Below, one piece after another: positions 2,673-24,348 of a stretch of DNA of 25,402 nucleotides; the first letter of the stretch is position 1; each line of letters opens with the position of its first letter. A model generated the notes under the pieces. The model saw only the letters and a program-made list of their open reading frames with translations, was not told the DNA's origin and made no database searches. Made by a program: the position numbers and the translations under genes. This stretch comes from a virus. The DNA lies in the IMG/VR virus record IMGVR_UViG_3300024348_000220, positions 1 to 25,402 of that record, one strand, 5' to 3'.

Positions 2673-2694
2673 AAAGAGCCTTCGGGCTCTTTTT
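2671..2694. terminator. Bidirectional intrinsic terminator
   Basis: A perfect 10-bp stem (AAAAAGAGCC pairing with GGCTCTTTTT) closed by a TTCG tetraloop. A-tract and T-tract lie on both sides, so it works as a terminator on either strand. It ends the plus-strand operon, whose stop codon TAA is at 2670-2672, and the minus-strand methyltransferase gene, whose stop codon begins at 2695. Confidence 0.93.
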
Positions 2695-3412
2695 ATTTAA
2701 CTGCCGCAATTAACTGTGGACAACTTTTGTGTACAGCAATATAATCAGGTCCTTTGAAATCTTCATCCCATAATTGATAATTTTTAAATTGCACACCCTG
2801 AGGAGTAAGTTTACCTATCTCAAATCCCAAGGGTGTCAACAATTCATAAAAATCTACAAGAAGTTTTTTAGTTAAAATACTGATGTATCCATATTCAAAT
2901 TGAATCATTTTTATTTGTTCTTGTTGCAACATGGAGTGAAATCCTTCAAGCACTCGATATTCATGTCCCTCGGTATCTATTTTCAAAAAATCAATCTGTG
3001 AGATGTTATGCATTCGACAATATGCATCACCTGGCACACCCAGGCCTGTTAGATACACACTGTTATCATGCGCAAGGTTCAATACACTTGTTGACACCCG
3101 ATCATTATCTGACACCACTTTAAGATCCACAAGATGCAAATTATCAGAAAGACCAAAACTATTGGGAAACATTTTAGCATCTACAATGTTGTTGGAAATC
3201 AATTTACTGAACGTTTGTGGCACAATCTCAAATAAATGAATGTCACTGACAGGATGATATCTGCGAGTCATTCTGCTCCACTCACCTATATTACACCCAA
3301 CATCGAAAATGGTGCGTAAATTATGGTGCTGTAATTTTTCATGGAGCTGTATTTCTCCATGAATGGCAAATTCATGTTCGGCATATGATTGATTGTATTC
3401 TGGAAATGTCAT
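2693..3412 (-). CDS. FkbM-family SAM-dependent methyltransferase
   Basis: A 239-residue protein with the FkbM (Methyltransf_21) layout. The SAM-binding motif I is TIFDVGCNIGEWS at residues 34-46, the acidic end of strand 2 is LFEIVP at 60-65, and the family hallmark DFLKIDTEGHEYRVLEG is at 141-157, followed by IQFEYG. Family members O-methylate small molecules or sugars; many sit in polysaccharide and glycan clusters. Its ATG overlaps the stop of the upstream glycosyltransferase by 4 bases (ATGA on the minus strand), so the two are co-translated and probably act on the same glycan. The gene stops inside the shared terminator. The FkbM assignment is secure; the substrate is not known. Confidence 0.92.
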   Translation of the reverse strand: MTFPEYNQSYAEHEFAIHGEIQLHEKLQHHNLRTIFDVGCNIGEWSRMTRRYHPVSDIHLFEIVPQTFSKLISNNIVDAKMFPNSFGLSDNLHLVDLKVVSDNDRVSTSVLNLAHDNSVYLTGLGVPGDAYCRMHNISQIDFLKIDTEGHEYRVLEGFHSMLQQEQIKMIQFEYGYISILTKKLLVDFYELLTPLGFEIGKLTPQGVQFKNYQLWDEDFKGPDYIAVHKSCPQLIAAVK

Positions 3413-6030
3413 AAAGATGGTGTAAAAATTGTTGAGCCAATATGATTACACACAATAGAAGAATCCACGTAAATTTTAGCGCCATGTTCTTTTGCTTTCT
3501 GACAAAAATATAAATCTTCAGAAAATGTATTAGCATGATCAATAGCTGATTTATACACGAATTGAGGATATCCTATTTTATTAATTATTTCAGTTTTTAC
3601 TAATACACACCCGAACCCACACGCATCAATTTCGTGCAATCCAGGGGGTTGAATGTCCCCCATTTGTGTATTAGAAAATCCCCCATTTGTATTTTTTCTA
3701 TAAATCTCTAGAATTTCATAGCCTGGTTTACGTTGAATATATACTCCTGAAACTATGTCAACATCATGAAAAAACATTTTATGTAATGCATCCTTGGGTA
3801 ATACAATATCGCTATCAACAGAAAGTAGATAATCAAATGCAGTACACCAATGTGCAATTAAATTTCTAATTTGATCTATTTGATACCCATGAAAATACTG
3901 AAACGTAACATCTAAATTTTTAGGAATATCTAAATCATAGATGCTTTTAAACGTCTCCGGTTCAATATATTTTGCGGTTGGTATTGCAATTAGTAATTTT
4001 TTAGGTCCCATGAGTAATACTCGGTTAGCTGTTTTAGTTTGTAGAGGTCCATGAATTTTATAATCATTTATCGGATTCTTGTCATTATATTTGTAGATAA
4101 TATCAGGAATGGCTTTAATTTTATTAGGATCTGCATTTTCAAGAACATTATAGAATATTGCCGTGTCACCGCCGGCTTTATACCAGTCGCCACGCTCATC
4201 TTTGAATAGATCAAGTGATATACCGTCAAATAATTTTCTCTTAAAGGTTCTTAAATGTGTATATGGCATATTCCACGGAAACTTATATTTTCGATAAGAT
4301 TTTGTTTCTCGAATATGTTTAGGATATGTTTGAGCAATCAAAGGAATACCATCTATACTTGACCAACAGGATCCATATGTAAATTCAACACCTTGAGCAT
4401 ATACTGAACTTATGTATGAAAAAATATTAGGATTAGGCATTAGACAATCATCACCATCAATTAACATAATTGTGTCATCAGACGAAATAATATTTTTTAT
4501 GATTTTAATCTGATTATATACGGCTCCCATATTATAATTATTCTTTGTCAGATTAAAATTTCCTTGTATATTTTTCGGTAAGTTTTTAATCGTCTCTTGT
4601 GCTATCTCAAAACTATTATCTGTTGAACAATCATCAATTAGATAATGCCGATATGATGAATAATTTTGTGCTGCAATAGATAATATGCAATCTTTTATAT
4701 AATCCTGTGCATTATAAAATGGCGTAATTACATGAAATAATGTGGAATTATTTACTTGATAATCAAAATCTTCAGAGTTAGAAAATCTACGATTAAAAAT
4801 ATGATGAATGCGTGTATTGATAAATTGAACTTTATTCTGCTCAACAACATCAAGATAATATCCGAGTTTTCTGTAAAAATGCTGCTTCCATTGTAACGCA
4901 ATTGTATTCCATCCTGCAACATCAACAACGATACTACAATAGTTCATTTTTTGATAATGCAAATATGCATTATTATAAGCACTTAATGTCAATTCAATGA
5001 ACTTTCTGCATTGTTCATCTATGTTAATCTCTGGGAATAAATTATTGGGCTCAATGGCATAATCTATTTTATAACAAGCTAGATCCACTGCAGTTTCTTC
5101 TAACGCCCCAAACCGATTTGTGATAATAGGAGTGTTATACAGCAATGATTCTAAACTGGAAATTCCAAATGTTTCCGGGAAGGCATTCGGAAAAATCATG
5201 AATGACGACTTGGACAACCTTTCAGCAACTTCCTTTTGAGGAATGATACCAGTGAATTCTATATCTAAGGCTTTTAAATCTTCTCGTTCTGCCAATTCGC
5301 GCACAGTTTTTTCTTGTGCGTCCGGTTCAGCATCATCACGAAAACGATAATAGCCGCCAATAATTTGAAGTTTAGCTGCTGGAATATTCTTCTTCACTTC
5401 GGGCCATATCTTGTTAACAAGAGGAATCATTCCTTTAGTTGCTGAAGCATTATAGATGAATAAATTTTTATCCTTTGCGGCGATATCAACTTCATCAATA
5501 TATTTTTTAGCACCATTTCGTGTGATGAACGTTTTGTTTTTCAACACTTCAAAATTACGCCGCTTGCCGTGATTGGCGTTCAATACATATGATGTGTGGA
5601 AATCTGACAATGTGAAAATTTCATCAATATGTCCGTGAACAAGCAAATCTTCAACAAATTCATCTCCCTGACAAAACGTGTCATGCAGCCATAGCACCTT
5701 TAATTTAGCACTGGTTTTCAAAGAAGAAAATTTCGTGTTTTCAGGTAGATAAGGAACAACTGTGCGTGACACAATCATGATGTCACATGTTGCATCTTCA
5801 GGAAAACTTGCCAGGTCAACATATTCAACCCCGTCATATACGCCGGGAGCTGATCGACTATCACGGCAGTTGTTGTAGACCGTGACATGAAACCCGTGAT
5901 TGTTCAATTCAGCTGCCATGTAGATCACAGCAGATTCTGACCCTCCCAACCCGTATTTTTCAATTGTGGTGGCGTCATATGTTAATCCAATAACATCAAC
6001 AATAGCAATTTTCAGTTTTTCCATAATCAT
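3409..6030 (-). CDS. Triple-domain glycosyltransferase (GT4 + GT2 + GT-A)
   Basis: An 873-residue protein with three transferase modules. Residues 6-410 are a GT-B fold GT4-type enzyme, with the N-terminal glycine loop YGLGGSESA (26-34) and the C-terminal EX7E motif (E286 to E294 in PETFGISSLE). Residues 431-665 are a GT2-type GT-A domain: VITPFYNAQDYI, the DD of YLIDDCST (466-467) and DGDD (525-528) for nucleotide-sugar and metal binding. Residues 678-870 are another GT-A-like domain with the DxD motif DSD (739-741) and a downstream ED (838-839). It would transfer up to three sugars from activated donors. The start may instead be the ATG at 6024, because the GGGTGA ribosome site is better spaced for it. 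It is AT-rich compared with flanking late genes and has its own promoter. Confidence 0.92.
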   Translation of the reverse strand: MIMEKLKIAIVDVIGLTYDATTIEKYGLGGSESAVIYMAAELNNHGFHVTVYNNCRDSRSAPGVYDGVEYVDLASFPEDATCDIMIVSRTVVPYLPENTKFSSLKTSAKLKVLWLHDTFCQGDEFVEDLLVHGHIDEIFTLSDFHTSYVLNANHGKRRNFEVLKNKTFITRNGAKKYIDEVDIAAKDKNLFIYNASATKGMIPLVNKIWPEVKKNIPAAKLQIIGGYYRFRDDAEPDAQEKTVRELAEREDLKALDIEFTGIIPQKEVAERLSKSSFMIFPNAFPETFGISSLESLLYNTPIITNRFGALEETAVDLACYKIDYAIEPNNLFPEINIDEQCRKFIELTLSAYNNAYLHYQKMNYCSIVVDVAGWNTIALQWKQHFYRKLGYYLDVVEQNKVQFINTRIHHIFNRRFSNSEDFDYQVNNSTLFHVITPFYNAQDYIKDCILSIAAQNYSSYRHYLIDDCSTDNSFEIAQETIKNLPKNIQGNFNLTKNNYNMGAVYNQIKIIKNIISSDDTIMLIDGDDCLMPNPNIFSYISSVYAQGVEFTYGSCWSSIDGIPLIAQTYPKHIRETKSYRKYKFPWNMPYTHLRTFKRKLFDGISLDLFKDERGDWYKAGGDTAIFYNVLENADPNKIKAIPDIIYKYNDKNPINDYKIHGPLQTKTANRVLLMGPKKLLIAIPTAKYIEPETFKSIYDLDIPKNLDVTFQYFHGYQIDQIRNLIAHWCTAFDYLLSVDSDIVLPKDALHKMFFHDVDIVSGVYIQRKPGYEILEIYRKNTNGGFSNTQMGDIQPPGLHEIDACGFGCVLVKTEIINKIGYPQFVYKSAIDHANTFSEDLYFCQKAKEHGAKIYVDSSIVCNHIGSTIFTPSL

Positions 6031-6101: not shown

Positions 6102-6116
6102 CGTTTGAGGAGCCAT

Positions 6117-9173
<3,057 letters not shown>

Positions 9174-9176
9174 TTT

Positions 9177-9950
9177 ATGCCAATAAACATCACAACATTA
9201 TTAACAGCATCCAATCCTATAGGATACACAGGTAGCTTTGGATACACAGGTAGCATCGGCTACACAGGTAGCTTTGGTTATACTGGTAGCCTTGGTTACA
9301 CAGGATCTTCAGGTGCCTATGCTGCATTAGGATACACGGGAAGTTTAGGGTACACGGGATCATTAGGGTTCACGGGGAGCCAAGGTGAAGTCAGTTTAAC
9401 TGACACACAAACACTGACCAACAAAACGGTTAATCTCACCAGTAACACCTTGTCTGGCACCATAGCCCAGTTTAATACTGCGCTCAGCGACGCAGATTTT
9501 GCTACATTGGCGGGTGCAGAAACACTGACCAATAAAACACTCACCACGAATTTACTCAGTGGGAACATTCGTGAAAAAACAACCATTGTTGCAAGTGCCG
9601 CCACTGGAACCATTGCCTATGATTGTTTAACACAACAAATTTTATATTACACCACCAACGCAACTGCCAATTTCACCATCAATGTGCGCGGTAACGCATC
9701 AACCACCTTGAACAGTTTGATGGCAACAGGTGATGCCATCACCGTGGTATTCATGAACACCAACGGTGGCACCGCATACTACGCAAATGCATTTCAAGTT
9801 GATGGGGCATCAGTAACTCCGAAATGGCAAGGAGGCACAGCACCTTCCGCGGGAAATGCCAGTTCAATTGATGGATACACATTCACTATCATAAAAACGT
9901 CGGCTTCTCCTACATATGTGATGTTAGGCGCTATCACCAAGTATACCTAA
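9177..9950 (+). CDS. GYTGS-repeat fibre protein with LTNKT module
   Basis: A 257-residue protein beginning 3 nt after the fibre gene. Residues 16-70 are GYTGSxG collagen-type repeats of the same kind as in the upstream fibre, including the interruption SSGAYAALG. Residues 74-130 carry two copies of the TLTNKT motif common in phage fibres, and 131-257 form a beta-rich C-terminal domain. That domain is clearly paralogous to the end of the protein at 17308-17814: both contain TPKWQGGTAP, an AGN, SIDGY and a terminal IIKT segment. It is likely a fibre or fibre-tip component sharing partner or register with the long collagen-like fibre. No chaperone domain is present. Confidence 0.87.
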   Translation: MPINITTLLTASNPIGYTGSFGYTGSIGYTGSFGYTGSLGYTGSSGAYAALGYTGSLGYTGSLGFTGSQGEVSLTDTQTLTNKTVNLTSNTLSGTIAQFNTALSDADFATLAGAETLTNKTLTTNLLSGNIREKTTIVASAATGTIAYDCLTQQILYYTTNATANFTINVRGNASTTLNSLMATGDAITVVFMNTNGGTAYYANAFQVDGASVTPKWQGGTAPSAGNASSIDGYTFTIIKTSASPTYVMLGAITKYT

Positions 9951-17307: not shown

Positions 17308-17814
17308 ATGGTGTTGCAGTCATTAGTTCCTATTGATAGAACTTTTGGGCGATTAAACACTCCGGAAATATACACCAATCGGCAAGTATTTCAAGGATCT
17401 CCAACAAGTTTATCTCAACTGATTGCGGGTGCCGCTGCTGAAAAAGTCACTGTTATTTCAGCGCCCACCACAGGTACCATCACATTGGACATCACGACTT
17501 CTCCTATATTATATTTCACCGCTAACGCCACAGCAAACTGGTCATTGGCATTGCGTGGATCATCAACATCATCTATAAATAGTTTGATGAACGTGGGTGA
17601 ATCTGTCACGGTGGCGTTTCTTAGTACTCAAGGTGGTACAGCATACTATCAAACCTCGTTGACAGTTGATGGGTTAACCATCACACCAAAGTGGCAGGGT
17701 GGGACTGCACCTGCAGCAGGAAATATTAATAGCATTGATGGATATGTATGTAATATTATTAAAACGGGACCTGGACAATTCACAGTTTTAGAAGCACAAA
17801 CACGATTTGCATAA
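17308..17814 (+). CDS. Fibre C-terminal-domain protein, paralogue of the 9177 gene end
   Basis: A 168-residue protein. The start chosen is ATG 17308, 1 nt after the preceding stop with GAGGA 8 nt upstream; an in-frame upstream start lies inside the preceding gene. Residues 1-45 carry an NTPEIYTNRQVFQG linker. From about 46 the protein parallels residues 131-257 of the 9177-9950 product: TGTI, a strand ending ILYFTANATANW, SLMNVGESVTVAF, GGTAYY, TPKWQGGTAP, SIDGY and IIKT. The two are stand-alone and fused versions of one beta-rich domain, likely a fibre tip or connector. The exact role is not known. Confidence 0.82.
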   Translation: MVLQSLVPIDRTFGRLNTPEIYTNRQVFQGSPTSLSQLIAGAAAEKVTVISAPTTGTITLDITTSPILYFTANATANWSLALRGSSTSSINSLMNVGESVTVAFLSTQGGTAYYQTSLTVDGLTITPKWQGGTAPAAGNINSIDGYVCNIIKTGPGQFTVLEAQTRFA

Positions 17815-17826
17815 TAGGATATATAC

Positions 17827-18585
17827 ATGTATATTACACGATTAGCAGCTGCTGCAGCACGTGCCTTTGGAATGCTTGGGGGTGTACTCCAACCTGTAAT
17901 TACATCTATTACATCAGCAAATCAAAATTCTTTAACGGTAAACTGGACTAATAAAAGCACCACCAATCAAATATTAGTATATGTAAACAATGTGTTAAAT
18001 GCGACAATTGCAGCAAACAGTACAAGTGGTACTATAACAAGTTTAACATGTAATACAACATATCAAATTTCATTAGCATATAATTTTGGCGGCACTCCAG
18101 GACCACGCACAAACAATCAATCAGCTACGGTTACTCCTTTAGCAAATGGTACATATCTAAGTCAATATTGTTCAGGGTGTGACTTAATATATTCATACAG
18201 TAACGGATCGTGTGGGACGTATACCACAAATCAAGGCTTCAACGGCAGCACGTGTTGTCCTTTGCAAGTTGCCGGGGTCGCGTATGCGGACACTGCCGTA
18301 TGCGGATACTACGGCTGCAGCGCTTACGTGTTAATGCATGTGGACGGGCCAGTCGGCGGCACCGACGCGTCGGCAGGTCTATGTTATAGTGGGTCGGCAT
18401 TTGCTGGTTATTATTATAATGCAGGAAATTACTACATTTACGGGGGAGTATGCAACCAGAGTGCTGACTTAACCCTGTATTTGTACAGAAGTTATCCGAA
18501 TCAAATATCTGGAAGTTGGAACATAGGGTGTGTACAAAGTTGTGGTTACTACTCATATGGTGGTTATGGTGTATATATTAACTAA
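17827..18585 (+). CDS. FN3 plus cysteine-rich virion protein
   Basis: A 252-residue protein. After a short amphipathic start (RLAAAAARAFGML), residues 22-105 have the strand pattern of a fibronectin type III domain (ITSITSANQNSLTVNW, then TTYQISLAYNFGG). The rest is a Tyr/Gly/Cys-rich module with eleven cysteines (115, 118, 129, 143, 144, 159, 164, 186, 209, 235, 239), beginning GTYLSQYCSGCDLIYSYSNG, a start I recall in marine phage adhesin tails. So many cysteines suggest disulfides or metal sites in the finished particle. Bases 18235-18380 are strikingly GC-rich compared with both sides, suggesting local replacement by recombination. It is probably a receptor-binding tail component. Confidence 0.78.
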   Translation: MYITRLAAAAARAFGMLGGVLQPVITSITSANQNSLTVNWTNKSTTNQILVYVNNVLNATIAANSTSGTITSLTCNTTYQISLAYNFGGTPGPRTNNQSATVTPLANGTYLSQYCSGCDLIYSYSNGSCGTYTTNQGFNGSTCCPLQVAGVAYADTAVCGYYGCSAYVLMHVDGPVGGTDASAGLCYSGSAFAGYYYNAGNYYIYGGVCNQSADLTLYLYRSYPNQISGSWNIGCVQSCGYYSYGGYGVYIN

Positions 18586-18609: not shown

Positions 18610-19305
18610 ATGAAAACATTTACAAATGATGACATTGGTGAAATAGCAAAAGAAGCAAAAGATGTGTTTTTCATTTATGTGAAAATGGGAATGTCAACGG
18701 AAAAAGATGTTGTTGAAATTGCACTAGATGAAAAAATTGCCAATCTCAATCGCCCAGATATACAAGTATTTGTTCAACATACAGATCCTGCAAAATTTGA
18801 CATTTTAAAACCTATGGTAGGAATAATATATGCATTTATTCCGGGAAATAGTCAAGTGATGATGTCGGGTACTCCTAATTTCTTTTTGCTTGATAATCCT
18901 CATGGAGAAGCAGGAAACTTTACCCGAGCCATGTGGCATTTAGATGCTCGAAAAAATAATATGACGATATTACAACATCTTGAAATTCATGCACCATTAG
19001 AAGCTGAAAAAATTAGAGAACAACAAGAAAAAGGAAAACTGTTACAAAATACAGCTAGCCAAGTATTTACAACAGATTTTGAAGAAGCTCGGCAACAATA
19101 TCTTGCACAATTTACCAATAAATCACTTGAAGAAATTGTTAATGCCGTTGCTCCATTGGAAATTGCAGAAGAAAGATTTAATATTTGCGGGGGATGTGAC
19201 AAGTTTAATAAAGAAATTGCACTATGCAATGAATGTGGATGTTCAATGGCCACTAAAGTTAATATAAAAAATGCTTCTTGTCCTTTATCAAAATGGGTTA
19301 ATTAA
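18610..19305 (+). CDS. Unknown protein with C-terminal six-Cys metal-binding motif
   Basis: A 231-residue, AT-rich gene without a clear ribosome site (A-rich leader). The N-terminal half is mixed alpha/beta and unrecognised. A helical, charged linker (about 130-145, EAEKIREQQEKGK) follows. The C-terminus contains C193-x2-C196, C206-x2-C209-x-C211 and C224-P, in a CGGC...CNECGCSM...CPLSKW arrangement. From memory, this CxxC...CxxCGC...CPxxKW pattern recurs in T4-like marine phage proteins and is read as a zinc-ribbon-like or iron-sulfur-binding tail. It ends 5 nt before the heme oxygenase gene and starts the AT-rich cargo block. Whether it serves bilin synthesis, for instance as an electron carrier, is speculation. 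Confidence 0.78.
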   Translation: MKTFTNDDIGEIAKEAKDVFFIYVKMGMSTEKDVVEIALDEKIANLNRPDIQVFVQHTDPAKFDILKPMVGIIYAFIPGNSQVMMSGTPNFFLLDNPHGEAGNFTRAMWHLDARKNNMTILQHLEIHAPLEAEKIREQQEKGKLLQNTASQVFTTDFEEARQQYLAQFTNKSLEEIVNAVAPLEIAEERFNICGGCDKFNKEIALCNECGCSMATKVNIKNASCPLSKWVN

Positions 19306-19310
19306 TAATT

Positions 19311-19874
19311 ATGACATTACGTGAGCTAACACATCATAAACATATAGAAGCTGAGCAACATGAATTTTCAAAGATTCTTCTTAGTGGTGAAATTTCAAAG
19401 GCTTTATACGCAAATTTTTTATTTAACAATTTAATATGTTATGCTGCGTTAGAAAACAAAATACAGCATATACTGGTTGATAAAAATTTACAAGGAATTG
19501 AAAGAACAAATAAAATGGCATTTGATCTTTCACAATTATCTGATAATATTGTATTTGGGCTATTACCCAGTACACAGCAATATTGTGAATATATCAATAA
19601 TCTTTCTGATGACAAAAAATTAATTGCACATATGTATGTCCGGCACATGGGCGACATGTATGGTGGGCAAATATTGAAAAATCTTGTGCCAAGTGTAGGT
19701 ACTATGTATGAGTTTACTAATCGCAGTGAATCAGTAAAAATCATTCGTGAAAATCTGACAGATGATATGGCACCTGAAGCCATCATTGTTTTTAATTTTG
19801 TCATCTCTTTATTTGACGAATTAATGATTTTTCATAAAGAAATTGAAAAACAAATTGAAGAAATGACTATTTAA
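19311..19874 (+). CDS. hemO: Heme oxygenase
   Basis: A 187-residue protein of the biliverdin-forming heme oxygenase family. The proximal heme ligand is H11 in the H-x-x-A-E pattern HIEAE. The distal-helix signature is LIAHMYVRHMGDMYGGQIL at 104-122, containing G114 and D115, which match human HO-1 Gly139 and Asp140. The enzyme opens heme to biliverdin IX-alpha, CO and iron using O2 and electrons, probably from ferredoxin. At 187 residues it is shorter than cyanobacterial HO1 (about 240) and closer to bacterial HemO. It is very AT-rich (22-30% GC in three hand-counted 60-base lines). It lies in one transcription direction with the bilin reductase, the next enzyme in the route. The name hemO follows usage for phage enzymes; ho1 would be an alternative. 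Confidence 0.95.
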   Translation: MTLRELTHHKHIEAEQHEFSKILLSGEISKALYANFLFNNLICYAALENKIQHILVDKNLQGIERTNKMAFDLSQLSDNIVFGLLPSTQQYCEYINNLSDDKKLIAHMYVRHMGDMYGGQILKNLVPSVGTMYEFTNRSESVKIIRENLTDDMAPEAIIVFNFVISLFDELMIFHKEIEKQIEEMTI

Positions 19875-19893
19875 CTATGAGGATGGATATATT

Positions 19894-20754
19894 ATGTTTT
19901 TTTTGAAACAACGACCATATAAAATTACTGCCTATACTAGTGAAGCTTCGGTATATGACTATTGTAAACCATCTATAGGTAAAGAAAAATTACCTGACAT
20001 TTTTACATCTGTTCCAAAATATCAATCGGGAACAGCCAGAAAAAATTATCAAGAGGCAGGTATTACTGTTGATGAGAATGATCCTCGTTTAAATCAATTA
20101 GATAAAAATAAAGGATATGCTTCAGCTAATTTAGATGCAACTACTAAATTACCTACCATAGCAACATGCCCGGGTATTAAAGATTTTTATCAACTCCCAA
20201 TACATTTAAAAATGTGGGGTGAAGCTGAAGTTCATGTAAAACCTGATGGAAAGTGGTCAACTAATATCAATCCTGCCCTTGGGATACAAATGACCTATCA
20301 TTCTAGTTTACAATATGGAAAAATGTATTCTGATAGAATATTTGTAAAAATGGAGAGTCCTTGGTATTTTTCATCTGACGATGATGTAAATGTAATGTTC
20401 ATGGAATCACATTACAGTGCTTCATTTTTTCGAGATAATGATTTAATAGTTCCTCCAGGTATTTTAAATTTTAAATATCAACCTGGCACAAATGTGCATA
20501 TTGGATACAAGATTAAAGAACAGCCTTACGCGGTAAAATGGAAATTAAATCAACCATTGGTTTCTATGTTTGCATTGACTGAACGTCCAGTGGTGATTGA
20601 ACACAAGTTAATTTCACACAATGATTGGCAAACATTAGTTAATTTTCCAAAATGTAATATTGGTCGTTATTTTAAAAAACTTCAGATTTTAAAAGAGATG
20701 GGAAAAAATGCACCTTCTCCTGACACACATTTAAAAGAAAGAAGTAAAAAATGA
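19894..20754 (+). CDS. Conserved marine-phage protein of unknown function, wedged between bilin genes
   Basis: A 286-residue soluble protein starting MFFLKQRPYKITAYTS, with GAGGATGG upstream. The N-terminus has DYCKPS and LPDIFTSVPKYQ. The centre has TCPGIKDFYQLPIHLKMWGE and an SPWYFS segment, and the C-terminal half has PPGILNFKYQPG, YAVKWKLNQPLVSMFALTER and the basic tail LKERSKK. From memory, this TCPxxxDxxxLPIxLxxW plus PPGI-F pattern belongs to a common family in marine myoviruses, possibly related to DUF6065; I could not verify that. No catalytic motif is recognised. It follows heme oxygenase by 19 nt and overlaps the bilin reductase by four bases (ATGA), so its translation is coupled to that enzyme. 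Confidence 0.85.
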   Translation: MFFLKQRPYKITAYTSEASVYDYCKPSIGKEKLPDIFTSVPKYQSGTARKNYQEAGITVDENDPRLNQLDKNKGYASANLDATTKLPTIATCPGIKDFYQLPIHLKMWGEAEVHVKPDGKWSTNINPALGIQMTYHSSLQYGKMYSDRIFVKMESPWYFSSDDDVNVMFMESHYSASFFRDNDLIVPPGILNFKYQPGTNVHIGYKIKEQPYAVKWKLNQPLVSMFALTERPVVIEHKLISHNDWQTLVNFPKCNIGRYFKKLQILKEMGKNAPSPDTHLKERSKK

Positions 20755-21398
20755 TTTTTTCATTACTGGATTCAGCCGTTCACGAGATGCTTGAACGGCT
20801 GAATGTGTATCCTGTGTCTGAGCATGAAACACATGATTTTCCCTGGAGAACATACACCTGGGAAAGTCCCACGTTTCGCCGCGCCAATCTTGATATTATA
20901 GATGTCCGCGACACCAAGAAATTGTACATGATGCACTTGTGTGTGTTTCCACATCTTGATGATCCCAGCCCAGTGTTTGGGTTGGATCTGGTGGCGGGTC
21001 CAAAAATAGTGACCGGGGCATTTCATGATTTCAGTCCTATTGGATCAAGCCCCATGAACACCTGGTTTGCCGAGTCGGTGTCAGCATTCATTCCCACCAA
21101 ACGCCGAGAACTGCCTCCCTGGGCCACCGCCATTTTCAGTGACAGCATGCTGGCAGCTAGCAGCGTGAAAGACCCAGAAGAATTGCAACACATCATCACC
21201 TTGATGTTGAAAAATCTGGATTACTTTCTGGCACATGTGGGGAACATTCGCACTGCTGACAATTACACCACACAGCAGAACCAGTATTGTTTCAATCAGA
21301 AACAAAATCCTCACACCCCGCGAGTCATGGCGGCATTGGGATTTGATGAACAGGTTACTCGTGATTTCATCCAGAACTGTTTGTTTCCAGAGTTATAA
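20751..21398 (+). CDS. pcyX: Ferredoxin-dependent bilin reductase (PcyA/PcyX type)
   Basis: A 215-residue protein with the FDBR fold signature. LYMMHLCVFPHLDDPSPVFG continues into LDLVAGP, aligning with the PcyA core: H62 corresponds to PcyA His88 and D79 to Asp105, with the same 17-residue spacing. The PcyA Glu76 position appears to be Asp (D48), with a two-residue insertion after it. GAFHDFSP matches the PcyA AxxDLSP strand, and the C-terminus NQYCFNQKQNPHTPRVMAAL ending CLFPEL matches the family end. The enzyme reduces biliverdin IX-alpha with ferredoxin electrons. PcyX enzymes from oceanic viruses make phycoerythrobilin; whether this is PcyX, PebS or PcyA type, and hence the product, is inferred. 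It is much GC-richer than its cargo neighbours. The stop overlaps the next late promoter. Confidence 0.92.
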   Translation: MIFSLLDSAVHEMLERLNVYPVSEHETHDFPWRTYTWESPTFRRANLDIIDVRDTKKLYMMHLCVFPHLDDPSPVFGLDLVAGPKIVTGAFHDFSPIGSSPMNTWFAESVSAFIPTKRRELPPWATAIFSDSMLAASSVKDPEELQHIITLMLKNLDYFLAHVGNIRTADNYTTQQNQYCFNQKQNPHTPRVMAALGFDEQVTRDFIQNCLFPEL

Positions 21399-21401
21399 AT
21401 A
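21394..21401 (+). promoter_or_regulatory. T4-type late promoter for the neck-terminase genes
   Basis: Exact TATAAATA overlapping the stop codon of the bilin reductase and lying 26 nt before the gp13 start. It uncouples the packaging and neck operon from the cargo genes. Confidence 0.83.
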
Positions 21402-21427: not shown

Positions 21428-22399
21428 ATGCCAATAACAACCCGCCAACAATTAAAAGATTACTGTCTCCGCCGCTTGGGGTATCCTGTCATTGAAATCA
21501 ATGTGGATGATGACCAAGTGGAAGACAGAATTCAAGATGCTGTTGAATTTTGGCAGGAATATCATTTTGATGGTGTGGAGAAGGTGTATCTGTCAGAACA
21601 AATCACCGCATCCACCTTGAAGTTGTCATCGGTGTTGGCAAACAACTTCACTGAAGGTGAAACGCTCATCGGCGCGACATCTGGTGCATCAGGTGTGATT
21701 CATGACATTGTTAGCATCAACACCATTGACATCAAGAATGAAACCAAGGCGTTTCAAAACAGTGAAACCATCACCGGACAAACGTCTGGATTTTCCACAA
21801 CATTGCATGCCACGTTGGGATACACCCAAGGAAGTTTGGCGCGCAAATATTTTGAAGTTGCTGACAACATCACGGGTGTGATTCGGGTGTTTCCATTGGG
21901 ATCAGCAGGTAGCAGCAGCACGGGATCCACAAACATTTTCAATGTGGTGTATCAATTCAGATTGAATGACATGTACAATTTGTTGTCATCTGACATCACA
22001 TATTTTCAACAAGTACGCGCACATTTGCAATTGCTGGATGATATGTTTGCTGGCAATCGCACCATTCGATTCAACAGAAAAATGAATCGCATCTTTCTTG
22101 ATGTGAATTGGGCTGAGACATTTTCCATTGGAGATCATGTCATCTTTGAAGCCAATGCCATCATTGATCCTGAAGTGTATCTTGAAGTGTACAACGACAT
22201 GTTCTTGAAACGGTATGCCACTGCATTGATCAAACGGCAATGGGGTGACAACATGAAGAAGTTTCAAGGCATGAAACTCCCAGGTGGCGTGGAAATGAAT
22301 GGACAACTGATCTACAATGAATCCATGGAAGAAATACAACAGATAGAAACGGAAATGCAAAGCCGGTATGAACTCCCGGTTGATTTCATGGTAGGATAG
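21428..22399 (+). CDS. 13: Neck protein gp13
   Basis: A 323-residue homologue of T4 gp13, which with gp14 forms the neck that closes the DNA-filled head for tail joining. Diagnostic parts are the N-terminal QQLKDYCLRRLGYPVIEINV, the VEDRIQDAVEFWQEYHFDG helix and the C-terminal LKRYATALIKRQWGDNMKKF followed by KLPGGVEMNG. Residues about 60-131 are an extra beta segment made of two related halves (F74 to S96 and F109 to G131), each containing E-T-x-x-G-x-T-S-G. That segment is absent from my recollection of T4 gp13 but similar to TSGA modules in other marine phage virion proteins. It follows a late promoter, and the gene order 13-14-15-16-17 confirms identity. Confidence 0.93.
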   Translation: MPITTRQQLKDYCLRRLGYPVIEINVDDDQVEDRIQDAVEFWQEYHFDGVEKVYLSEQITASTLKLSSVLANNFTEGETLIGATSGASGVIHDIVSINTIDIKNETKAFQNSETITGQTSGFSTTLHATLGYTQGSLARKYFEVADNITGVIRVFPLGSAGSSSTGSTNIFNVVYQFRLNDMYNLLSSDITYFQQVRAHLQLLDDMFAGNRTIRFNRKMNRIFLDVNWAETFSIGDHVIFEANAIIDPEVYLEVYNDMFLKRYATALIKRQWGDNMKKFQGMKLPGGVEMNGQLIYNESMEEIQQIETEMQSRYELPVDFMVG

Positions 22400-22400
22400 C

Positions 22401-23129
22401 ATGGCCACTAATTTCTATTTTCAATCAGGAAACACTTCAGGCACCACCAATGAACAACGCCTCTTGGAGGACTTGATCATTGAGAGCATGAAAATTTATG
22501 GACATGATGTGTATTATCTTCCACGGAGAACCATCAAGCAAGATGACATTCTGGGTGAAGATGTGTTAAGTCGGTTTGAAAATGCCTATCCCATTGAAAT
22601 GTATTTGAACAACGTTGATGGTTGGGAAGGTGATGGAGAATTGTTCACGAAGTTTGGAATTCAATTAACACATCAAGCCACGTTCGTGGTGTCAAAACGT
22701 CGATGGGAAGAAGTGGTAGGGTTAACGCCCGATGAATTTCTCCAACTGCCTGATCGTCCTGCGGAAGGAGACATCATTTATTTTCCCAAGACCAACAGCA
22801 TGTTTGAAATCAAGTTTGTGCAACATCTTGATCCCTTTTATCAATTGGGCAAATTTTACATTTACAGCATGCAATGTGAATTGTATCAATACAGTTCAGA
22901 AATATTTGAAACAGGTGTGGAAGAAATTGATCAGGTGGATGACAACATGTCCATGGACAATCTCACCTACCAGCTGTTGATGCAAACAGGTGATTTGTTA
23001 TTGACACAAACAGGCAACGCCATCATTAGCACCACACCACGAGATGGCATGGGTGACAATGCCCTTCTTGACAATGAAGGAGCTGACATTCTGGACTTCA
23101 CGGAATTCAATCCTTTTGGTGAATACTAA
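22401..23129 (+). CDS. 14: Neck protein gp14
   Basis: A 242-residue homologue of T4 gp14, the second neck protein, which completes the head and makes the tail-docking surface. Recognisable parts are LLEDLIIESMKIYGHDVYYL, the DDILGEDVLSRFENAYPIEM region, QATFVVSKRRWEE, and the EGDIIYFPKTNSMFEIKFV strand pair ending near MQCELYQYSSE. The acidic C-terminal part (EEIDQVDDNMSMDN and after) is typical. It starts 1 nt after the gp13 stop and overlaps gp15 by one base (TAATG), so the neck genes form one operon. Length is close to the T4 protein (about 256). Confidence 0.93.
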   Translation: MATNFYFQSGNTSGTTNEQRLLEDLIIESMKIYGHDVYYLPRRTIKQDDILGEDVLSRFENAYPIEMYLNNVDGWEGDGELFTKFGIQLTHQATFVVSKRRWEEVVGLTPDEFLQLPDRPAEGDIIYFPKTNSMFEIKFVQHLDPFYQLGKFYIYSMQCELYQYSSEIFETGVEEIDQVDDNMSMDNLTYQLLMQTGDLLLTQTGNAIISTTPRDGMGDNALLDNEGADILDFTEFNPFGEY

Positions 23130-23935
23130 TGTTTAAAACACAACATTTCTACCATCAACATGTTCGTAAAGCCATTATTGCGTTTGGAACATTGTTCAAT
23201 CAAATACAAGTACGCAGAACAAATGCTCAAGGAGAAGTTGTTCAAAGTGTGTTTGTTCCATTAAGTTATGCACCCAAGCAGAAATTCATAGAACGTATTC
23301 GTGAAGTGCCTGATGTTGATGAAAATCGGCAACCGTTTGCCGTGACGTTACCTAGAATTGGTTTCGAGATCACCAACTTTTCATATGATCCATCCAGAAA
23401 ATTATCCATCACACAACCTGTGCGGGCGGTGGACACCACACAAACCACGAAAACTGGCACACGATATTCCCATGTGGCTACACCATACAACATGGGAATC
23501 AGCATGAGTGTGTTTGTGAAAAATCAAGATGATGGCTTGCAAATCATAGAACAAATTCTTCCCTATTTCAATCCTGATTTCAACGTCACGGTGAACGCCT
23601 TGCCTGATTTGGGTGTGAAGCATGATATTCAAATTGTGTTGGATAGTGTCACCTACAACGATGAATGGGAAGGCAGTTTCGACAAAAGATTGAGTGTGAT
23701 CTGGGATTTAAATTTCACCATGAAGTTGAACTTCTATGGATATGTCACAGACGCTCAATTGATTAAAAAGACCATTATCGACTTGTACAATGATAGCAAT
23801 CTGTTTGCTGGAAAACCACCGGTCAACACCATAGTGGGTACGGAAATCACAACAACAGTAGATCCATATAATGCATTACCCATTGATACATATTCCTACA
23901 TCACAGATTTTGATGAAATTTATACTGGTGATTAA
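23129..23935 (+). CDS. 15: Tail sheath stabiliser / tail completion protein gp15
   Basis: A 268-residue homologue of T4 gp15, the hexameric terminator that caps the tail tube and sheath and docks to the neck. Visible conserved parts are the N-terminal HQHVRKAIIAFGTLFNQIQV, the SYAPKQKFIERIREVPD segment, the TLPRIGFEITNFSYDPSRKL motif and the C-terminal EGSFDKRLSVIWDLNFTMKL. Its length matches T4 gp15 (272). It overlaps gp14 by one base and gp16 follows after 2 nt, the canonical T4 order. Confidence 0.94.
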   Translation: MFKTQHFYHQHVRKAIIAFGTLFNQIQVRRTNAQGEVVQSVFVPLSYAPKQKFIERIREVPDVDENRQPFAVTLPRIGFEITNFSYDPSRKLSITQPVRAVDTTQTTKTGTRYSHVATPYNMGISMSVFVKNQDDGLQIIEQILPYFNPDFNVTVNALPDLGVKHDIQIVLDSVTYNDEWEGSFDKRLSVIWDLNFTMKLNFYGYVTDAQLIKKTIIDLYNDSNLFAGKPPVNTIVGTEITTTVDPYNALPIDTYSYITDFDEIYTGD

Positions 23936-23937
23936 CC

Positions 23938-24348
23938 ATGTTTGAAGAATTGGATGATAAATTCAATGTAACACCCACCACGACTCAACACACATCTCCA
24001 GTTGTTACCAAGAAAGCAATTGAAGATGATGCTGAACATGCTCGTGAAACGTTACATAATTTGATAAGTAAAGGCAACGAGGCGGTGGATGGCATTCTAC
24101 ACATTGCAAAAAACAGTGATCATCCCCGAGCCTATGAAGTGGCGGGACAACTGATCAAAACCATTTCCGATGTTGCCAAAGATTTACTGGAAGTGCAAAA
24201 GCGCAAGAAGGATCTGGAAAAGGATGAGAAGCCAAAAATACAAACACAAAACAATTTGTTTGTTGGATCAACTCATGAGTTGTTGCGGGCGATGCGGCAA
24301 GCGCAAGAACCGTTGAAAATTGCTGAAGTGATTCATGACGGCGCTTGA
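23938..24348 (+). CDS. 16: Small terminase subunit gp16
   Basis: A 136-residue, mostly helical and charged protein matching the T4 gp16 class that recognises concatemeric DNA and stimulates the gp17 ATPase. The N-terminal 25 residues are Thr-rich and probably disordered. The central part has long helices with heptad-like spacing (HARETLHNLISKGNEAVDGI and VAGQLIKTISDVAKDLLEVQ), as expected for the coiled-coil oligomerisation core. Then comes a lysine-rich stretch (KRKKDLEKDEKPK) and the FVGSTHELLRAMRQA C-terminal motif typical of marine T4-like phages. It overlaps the large terminase gene by 14 bases. Confidence 0.92.
   Translation: MFEELDDKFNVTPTTTQHTSPVVTKKAIEDDAEHARETLHNLISKGNEAVDGILHIAKNSDHPRAYEVAGQLIKTISDVAKDLLEVQKRKKDLEKDEKPKIQTQNNLFVGSTHELLRAMRQAQEPLKIAEVIHDGA

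Follow-up and report, generated by a model that had tools for sequence, protein, structure and literature searches.

Why should a T4-like phage carry genes for heme breakdown and bilin synthesis immediately ahead of its neck genes, what would they make, and to whose benefit? We addressed this in a single IMG/VR virus record of 25.4 kb (hereafter the window, meaning this whole stretch of DNA), in which tail-fibre genes occupy the left part and gp13, gp14, gp15, gp16 and the start of gp17 the right. The heme oxygenase (HO) and reductase ORFs are both complete, both on the plus strand, and lie directly upstream of the T4-type neck genes (Table 1). An earlier note on this DNA had called the setting T4-like, which the series gp13 to gp17 following the cassette bears out, and had described 19311-21398 as encoding two enzymes on one strand; the two enzymes are there as described, and a third ORF of 286 aa had gone unmentioned. 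We consider it very likely that this is a hemO-pcyX auxiliary metabolic cassette, which would take heme to biliverdin IX-alpha and on to phycoerythrobilin with electrons from ferredoxin.

Table 1. Features of the HO-reductase locus, in window coordinates.
Feature	Position	Strand	Description
Late-promoter motif TATAAATA	17574..17581	+	nearest copy upstream of the cassette
DUF6171 ORF	18610..19305	+	231 aa, Cys-rich C-terminal domain; PF19668 30 bits; phrog_13558
Heme oxygenase (HemO)	19311..19874	+	187 aa; H11, distal helix HMGDMYGGQ with G114, D115, G118, G119
ORF286	19894..20754	+	286 aa, between HO and PcyX; weak phrog_7084 match
PcyX-type ferredoxin-dependent bilin reductase	20751..21398	+	215 aa; D48/H62/D79
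Late-promoter motif TATAAATA	21394..21401	+	spans the PcyX stop codon, heads gp13
gp13, gp14 (neck), gp15 (tail sheath stabiliser), gp16 (small terminase)	21428..24348	+	directly downstream of PcyX

The gap of 876 nt between the end of HO and PcyX, on the same strand, is largely taken up by ORF286, and because the end of ORF286 and the start of PcyX have 4 nt (ATGA) in common, HO, ORF286 and PcyX read like one operon. The DUF6171 ORF ends 5 nt before the HO start, and a few relatives likewise have an ORF of this type ahead of HO. Neither Rfam elements nor tRNAs were detected in the window. The fibre region has features of its own, including an FkbM-type methyltransferase and an 873-aa protein with GT1, GT2 and C-terminal phage glycosyltransferase parts (2693-6030, minus strand), a 1022-aa collagen-like fibre at 6105-9173 with a GYTGSxG repeat and a C-terminal S74 chaperone peptidase, and directly after it, at 9177, a further GYTGS-repeat ORF.

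By profile, residues and fold the 187-aa protein is a canonical heme oxygenase. It scores 72.8 bits against PF01126 (cut-off 23), matches HO-2 (1wov) in a PDB sequence search (E 4.7e-9), and has the H11, G114 and D115 that had been read as an intact signature. Relatives keep both the proximal H11 and the HMGDMYGGQ of the distal helix, with His at position 11 in 145/145 rows that have a letter there and Asp at position 115 in 152/152. The AF2 model (pLDDT 93.5) matches rat and human HO-1, HmuO and cyanobacterial (Syn) HO-1 with TMq values of 0.74-0.82, and the marks of the HO-1/HmuO superfamily, an all-helical fold (here predicted) with a proximal His and a distal GD..GG motif, are all found.

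The 215-aa reductase is a ferredoxin-dependent bilin reductase (FDBR), and specifically a PcyX, on the basis of its tree position, residue signature and predicted fold. Against the family profile PF05996 it scores 69.1 bits (cut-off 31), and the core described previously (H62, D79 and the C-terminal YC..Q..N..T.RV) is present. The best match in a PDB sequence search was the PcyX structure 5OWG at 175.5 bits, with PcyA at about 49 bits; the AF2 model (pLDDT 92.3) matches FDBRs and, less strongly, their relatives the red chlorophyll catabolite reductases, and 5OWG again has the highest identity (31%) among these structure matches. In an alignment of the window protein with 161 relatives from viral contigs and phages and 24 references, D48, H62 and D79 align with PcyX Asp55, His69 and Asp86. 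This Asp-His-Asp signature is found in 162/162 PcyX proteins, H62 and D79 being invariant, and all 13 PcyA-type references, cyanobacterial and cyanophage, read Glu-His-Asp. The earlier note had assigned the protein to the FDBR family and proposed a phylogeny as the check; in a maximum-likelihood tree of 60 rows, where long branches meeting near the root affect the joining order of the outer groups, it falls inside a PcyX clade of 37 rows (support 100/100, recovered in 200/200 bootstrap trees) that includes the characterised EBK42635 and stands apart from PcyA, PebA/B and PebS.

Two other identities were considered and rejected. PcyA is contradicted by the tree and by D48, since every PcyA reference has Glu at this site (Glu76 of the Asp-His-Glu triad). 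PebA, PebB and PebS are contradicted by the tree position and by H62, as the His at the PcyA His88 site is absent from 10/10 Peb references, which have Asn there.

Characterised PcyX enzymes make phycoerythrobilin (PMC11480375, PMC13197396). Two points nevertheless weigh against assigning this product here: the window enzyme is 42% identical to the PcyX of the Pelagibacter phage Mosig EXVC030M (MT647606), lying with L004 and L005 on a deep branch within PcyX away from the Mosig/5OWG branch, and this small lineage has Asn (N46) at the PcyA His74 equivalent, beside the active-site Asp. The reductase might thus be functionally a PcyA, making phycocyanobilin (PCB) rather than phycoerythrobilin, like the 'PcyA/X' of the freshwater phage CB_2, which yields PCB and illustrates that the product can differ (PMC11480375); the replacement of the usual His by N46 and the branch shared by PcyX and PcyA (our tree; PMC10151467) would both be compatible with such a switch. 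We regard it as very unlikely, given the nesting within the PcyX clade at 100/100 and the presence of the PcyX-specific D48, a residue reported missing in CB_2 and replaced by Glu in every PcyA examined.

If the two enzymes act as hemO and pcyX, HO would open heme using O2 and electrons to give biliverdin IX-alpha, Fe2+ and CO, as the CB_2 HemO makes biliverdin IX-alpha (PMC11480375), and PcyX would carry out a four-electron reduction of biliverdin via 15,16-dihydrobiliverdin to the pink pigment phycoerythrobilin. Turnover, alpha-regiospecificity and phycoerythrobilin as the product are what we would expect from the sequence. The electrons for PcyX would come from ferredoxin, either made by the host or made by the phage from elsewhere in its incomplete genome. 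The window contains neither a [2Fe-2S] ferredoxin nor a homologue of CpeT-type lyases, in agreement with the earlier note. We searched 24 PcyX-bearing records, most of them incomplete fragments, for partner families, and Mosig was the only one with a [2Fe-2S] ferredoxin, located elsewhere in its genome, unlike the window record. The Mosig protein (MT647606, W04:C1:2758-3000, locus L337) is a candidate electron donor for PcyX.

Comparison with a close relative, L004, indicates that the locus is a mosaic. The two share 95.1% DNA identity in the gp13 region and 91.5% in PcyX (93% as protein), whereas the L004 HO is only 46% identical to that of the window as protein, and ORF286 is absent from L004. 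Strong homology starts at the PcyX start codon, window position 20751, so PcyX is kept, HO and ORF286 form a block in which the window departs from L004 and L005, and we infer that in the window lineage HO and ORF286 were exchanged by recombination beside a retained PcyX. The G+C content at 19-20 kb, where HO and ORF286 lie, is 30%, versus 40-45% around, which fits a recent foreign origin. One could read the low G+C stretch and its apparently recent exchange as signs that HO and PcyX are decaying or captured genes without function. We find this scarcely credible, as against it stand full-length frames, all catalytic residues kept, predicted folds of high confidence, and PcyX dN/dS values of 0.06-0.20 between the window and L003, L004, L005 and L006, which signify purifying selection.

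ORF286 itself had no match in Pfam, PDB or INPHARED, and its relatives in IMG/VR are limited to two near-identical contigs, L002 and L003/L083. The weak match is to phrog_7084, a group of unknown function that yielded no homologue set worth folding. It could be imagined that a deep-lineage PcyX with Asn, a swapped HO and a late co-transcribed ORF286 together handle bilins unlike the Mosig cassette, giving another product or employing ORF286 as a bilin or heme partner; we think this unlikely.

How consistently the two enzymes travel together was judged from one IMG/VR scan, which returned 386 PcyX relatives. The best 80 of these for the window PcyX, the best 80 for the Mosig PcyX and Mosig itself make up 161 loci. 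HO is upstream of PcyX in 157/161, that is, in all with upstream DNA visible; since the loci are partly redundant, these 157 should not be taken as independent cases. The remaining four have their PcyX start no more than 26 nt from the contig end, so that the upstream gene is cut off. Viewed in reverse, 38 of 47 loci found by HO have PcyX within reach. No PcyX was found in the GTDB collection of 84,980 bacterial and archaeal genomes with a pattern-based scan that could miss divergent cases, and the best matches there were PcyA-type proteins of 24-34% identity, nearly all cyanobacterial. In roughly 160 partly redundant loci, then, no exception to the pairing of HO and PcyX was seen, even where HO has been exchanged, and that the two are kept together despite this exchange argues that the whole pathway, and not either enzyme alone, is selected.

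The window also gives some indication of when the cassette is expressed. The motif TATAAATA, the T4 late-promoter consensus, occurs six times (337, 6045, 11258, 14436, 17574 and 21394), always on the plus strand; 1.37 copies are expected, and 0/100 shuffles reach six. Of 79 non-redundant relatives, 31 have a copy in the first 100 nt downstream of PcyX, where about one would be predicted from the plus-strand average of 0.013 per 100 nt, and in 4/68 relatives (L036, L059, L060 and L074) a copy lies 28-40 nt upstream of HO. Loci of the latter kind have recurrent genes for a pfkB kinase, an epimerase, a HAD hydrolase and a cytidylyltransferase beside HO-PcyX. For the window cassette the closest copy on the upstream side lies at 17574, so that transcription reading through from there late in infection is the simplest interpretation; this motif would drive the fibre ORF at 17827, the DUF6171 ORF, HO, ORF286 and PcyX as one late unit. 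Taken together, the motif positions suggest that the HO-PcyX cassette is expressed late in infection.

By terminase (50-52%), gp13 and gp15, cyanophages and pelagiphages are about equally close to the window phage. Neither psbA nor any other photosystem II reaction-centre protein was found in the 24 PcyX-bearing records. That psbA is missing from the family and that the cultured member Mosig is a pelagiphage both point, in agreement with what has been published, to family hosts outside the cyanobacteria, and the host of the window phage is probably a non-cyanobacterial aquatic bacterium.

As to benefit, we lean, with low confidence, towards a role in which heme is degraded for its iron or for redox protection and PcyX clears the biliverdin, rather than towards light-harvesting. 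The neighbour families around the 80 closest loci (Pfam on representatives) are 2OG-Fe(II) oxygenases, tail assembly chaperone, cupin, carbamoyltransferase, PhoH, sugar enzymes, lysozyme and structural genes, and no known bilin binder is among those that recur. The 24 PcyX-bearing records likewise gave no phycobilisome proteins (PF00502), no GAF domains and no AlaS (valaS) over the cut-off. It is plausible, without being probable, that selection acts on heme breakdown (for iron release, CO or redox protection) and that the bilin is a by-product, PcyX serving to remove biliverdin; the lack of a bilin-binding family and of psbA in these records agrees with this, as does the keeping of the pair when HO was replaced by a 46%-identical allele. 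On the other hand, the records are mostly fragmentary and the bilin could be bound by proteins of the host. PcyX, for its part, evolves under strong purifying selection and is always paired with HO, and a specific four-electron phycoerythrobilin synthase would be an elaborate route merely for biliverdin disposal.

The bilin might instead be a chromophore for a host photoreceptor, a bilin-binding globin or a phycobiliprotein, which, like the by-product reading, is compatible with the proposed chemistry. Cyanobacteria put FDBR products to such uses, and pre-PcyA enzymes are associated with bilin-binding globins (PMC10151467). We regard this use as possible but doubtful, since no partner appeared among the recurrent neighbours, nor PF00502 or GAF in the 24 records. 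Mosig, moreover, infects Pelagibacter, which to our knowledge has no phycobilisome.

The window is best placed beside systems that are already known. Mosig is likewise T4-like, has the same order of HO, PcyX, gp13, gp14, gp15 and terminase, and its PcyX shares the Asp-His-Asp signature; it differs in that HO is followed immediately by PcyX with no ORF286, ferrochelatase and 2OG oxygenases lie upstream, and its HO is 33% identical to that of the window. EBK42635 (5OWG), a phage PcyX from a marine metagenome, has the same Asp-His-Asp site and fold but belongs to the Mosig branch and not to that of the window. The peat-bog phage CB_2, with hemO/pcyA(X)/valaS, likewise carries a phage-borne heme catabolic pair, although its reductase, unlike that of the window, is without the PcyX Asp and makes PCB (PMC11480375). 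In contrast to the valaS-hemO-pcyX cassette, where a 5-aminolevulinate synthase gene adjoins the pair, the neighbours of the pair here are ORF286, the DUF6171 ORF and gp13. Cyanophage PcyA and PebS resemble the window enzyme in FDBR fold and family and in their T4-like phages, but cyanophage PcyA is 24-29% identical to it with Glu at position 48, and PebS has Ala/Val at 48 and Asn at 62; the PebS phage P-SSM2 carries psbA.

Phage hemO-pcyX and the phycoerythrobilin activity of PcyX were reportedly covered by Ledermann in 2016 and 2018. The phage hemO-pcyX cassettes, the gp13 link to T4-like pelagiphages and PcyX activity are published (PMC11480375, PMC13197396), as is hemO-pcyX beside gp13 in pelagiphage Mosig (PMC11480375). 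The pigment cassette has thus been seen before in phages of marine and fresh waters, with part of its biochemistry worked out, and the window is a divergent new copy. What is new is the deep PcyX branch, in which Asn occupies the site of PcyA His74, the presence of HO ahead of PcyX at every one of the 157 loci whose upstream DNA can be seen, the exchanged HO with the inserted ORF286, and the late-promoter context. Bilin synthesis by phages of hosts thought to be without phycobilisomes is a standing puzzle that has been called enigmatic (PMC11480375). The window does not alone settle the role of the pigment; what it adds is a second deep PcyX lineage for product testing.
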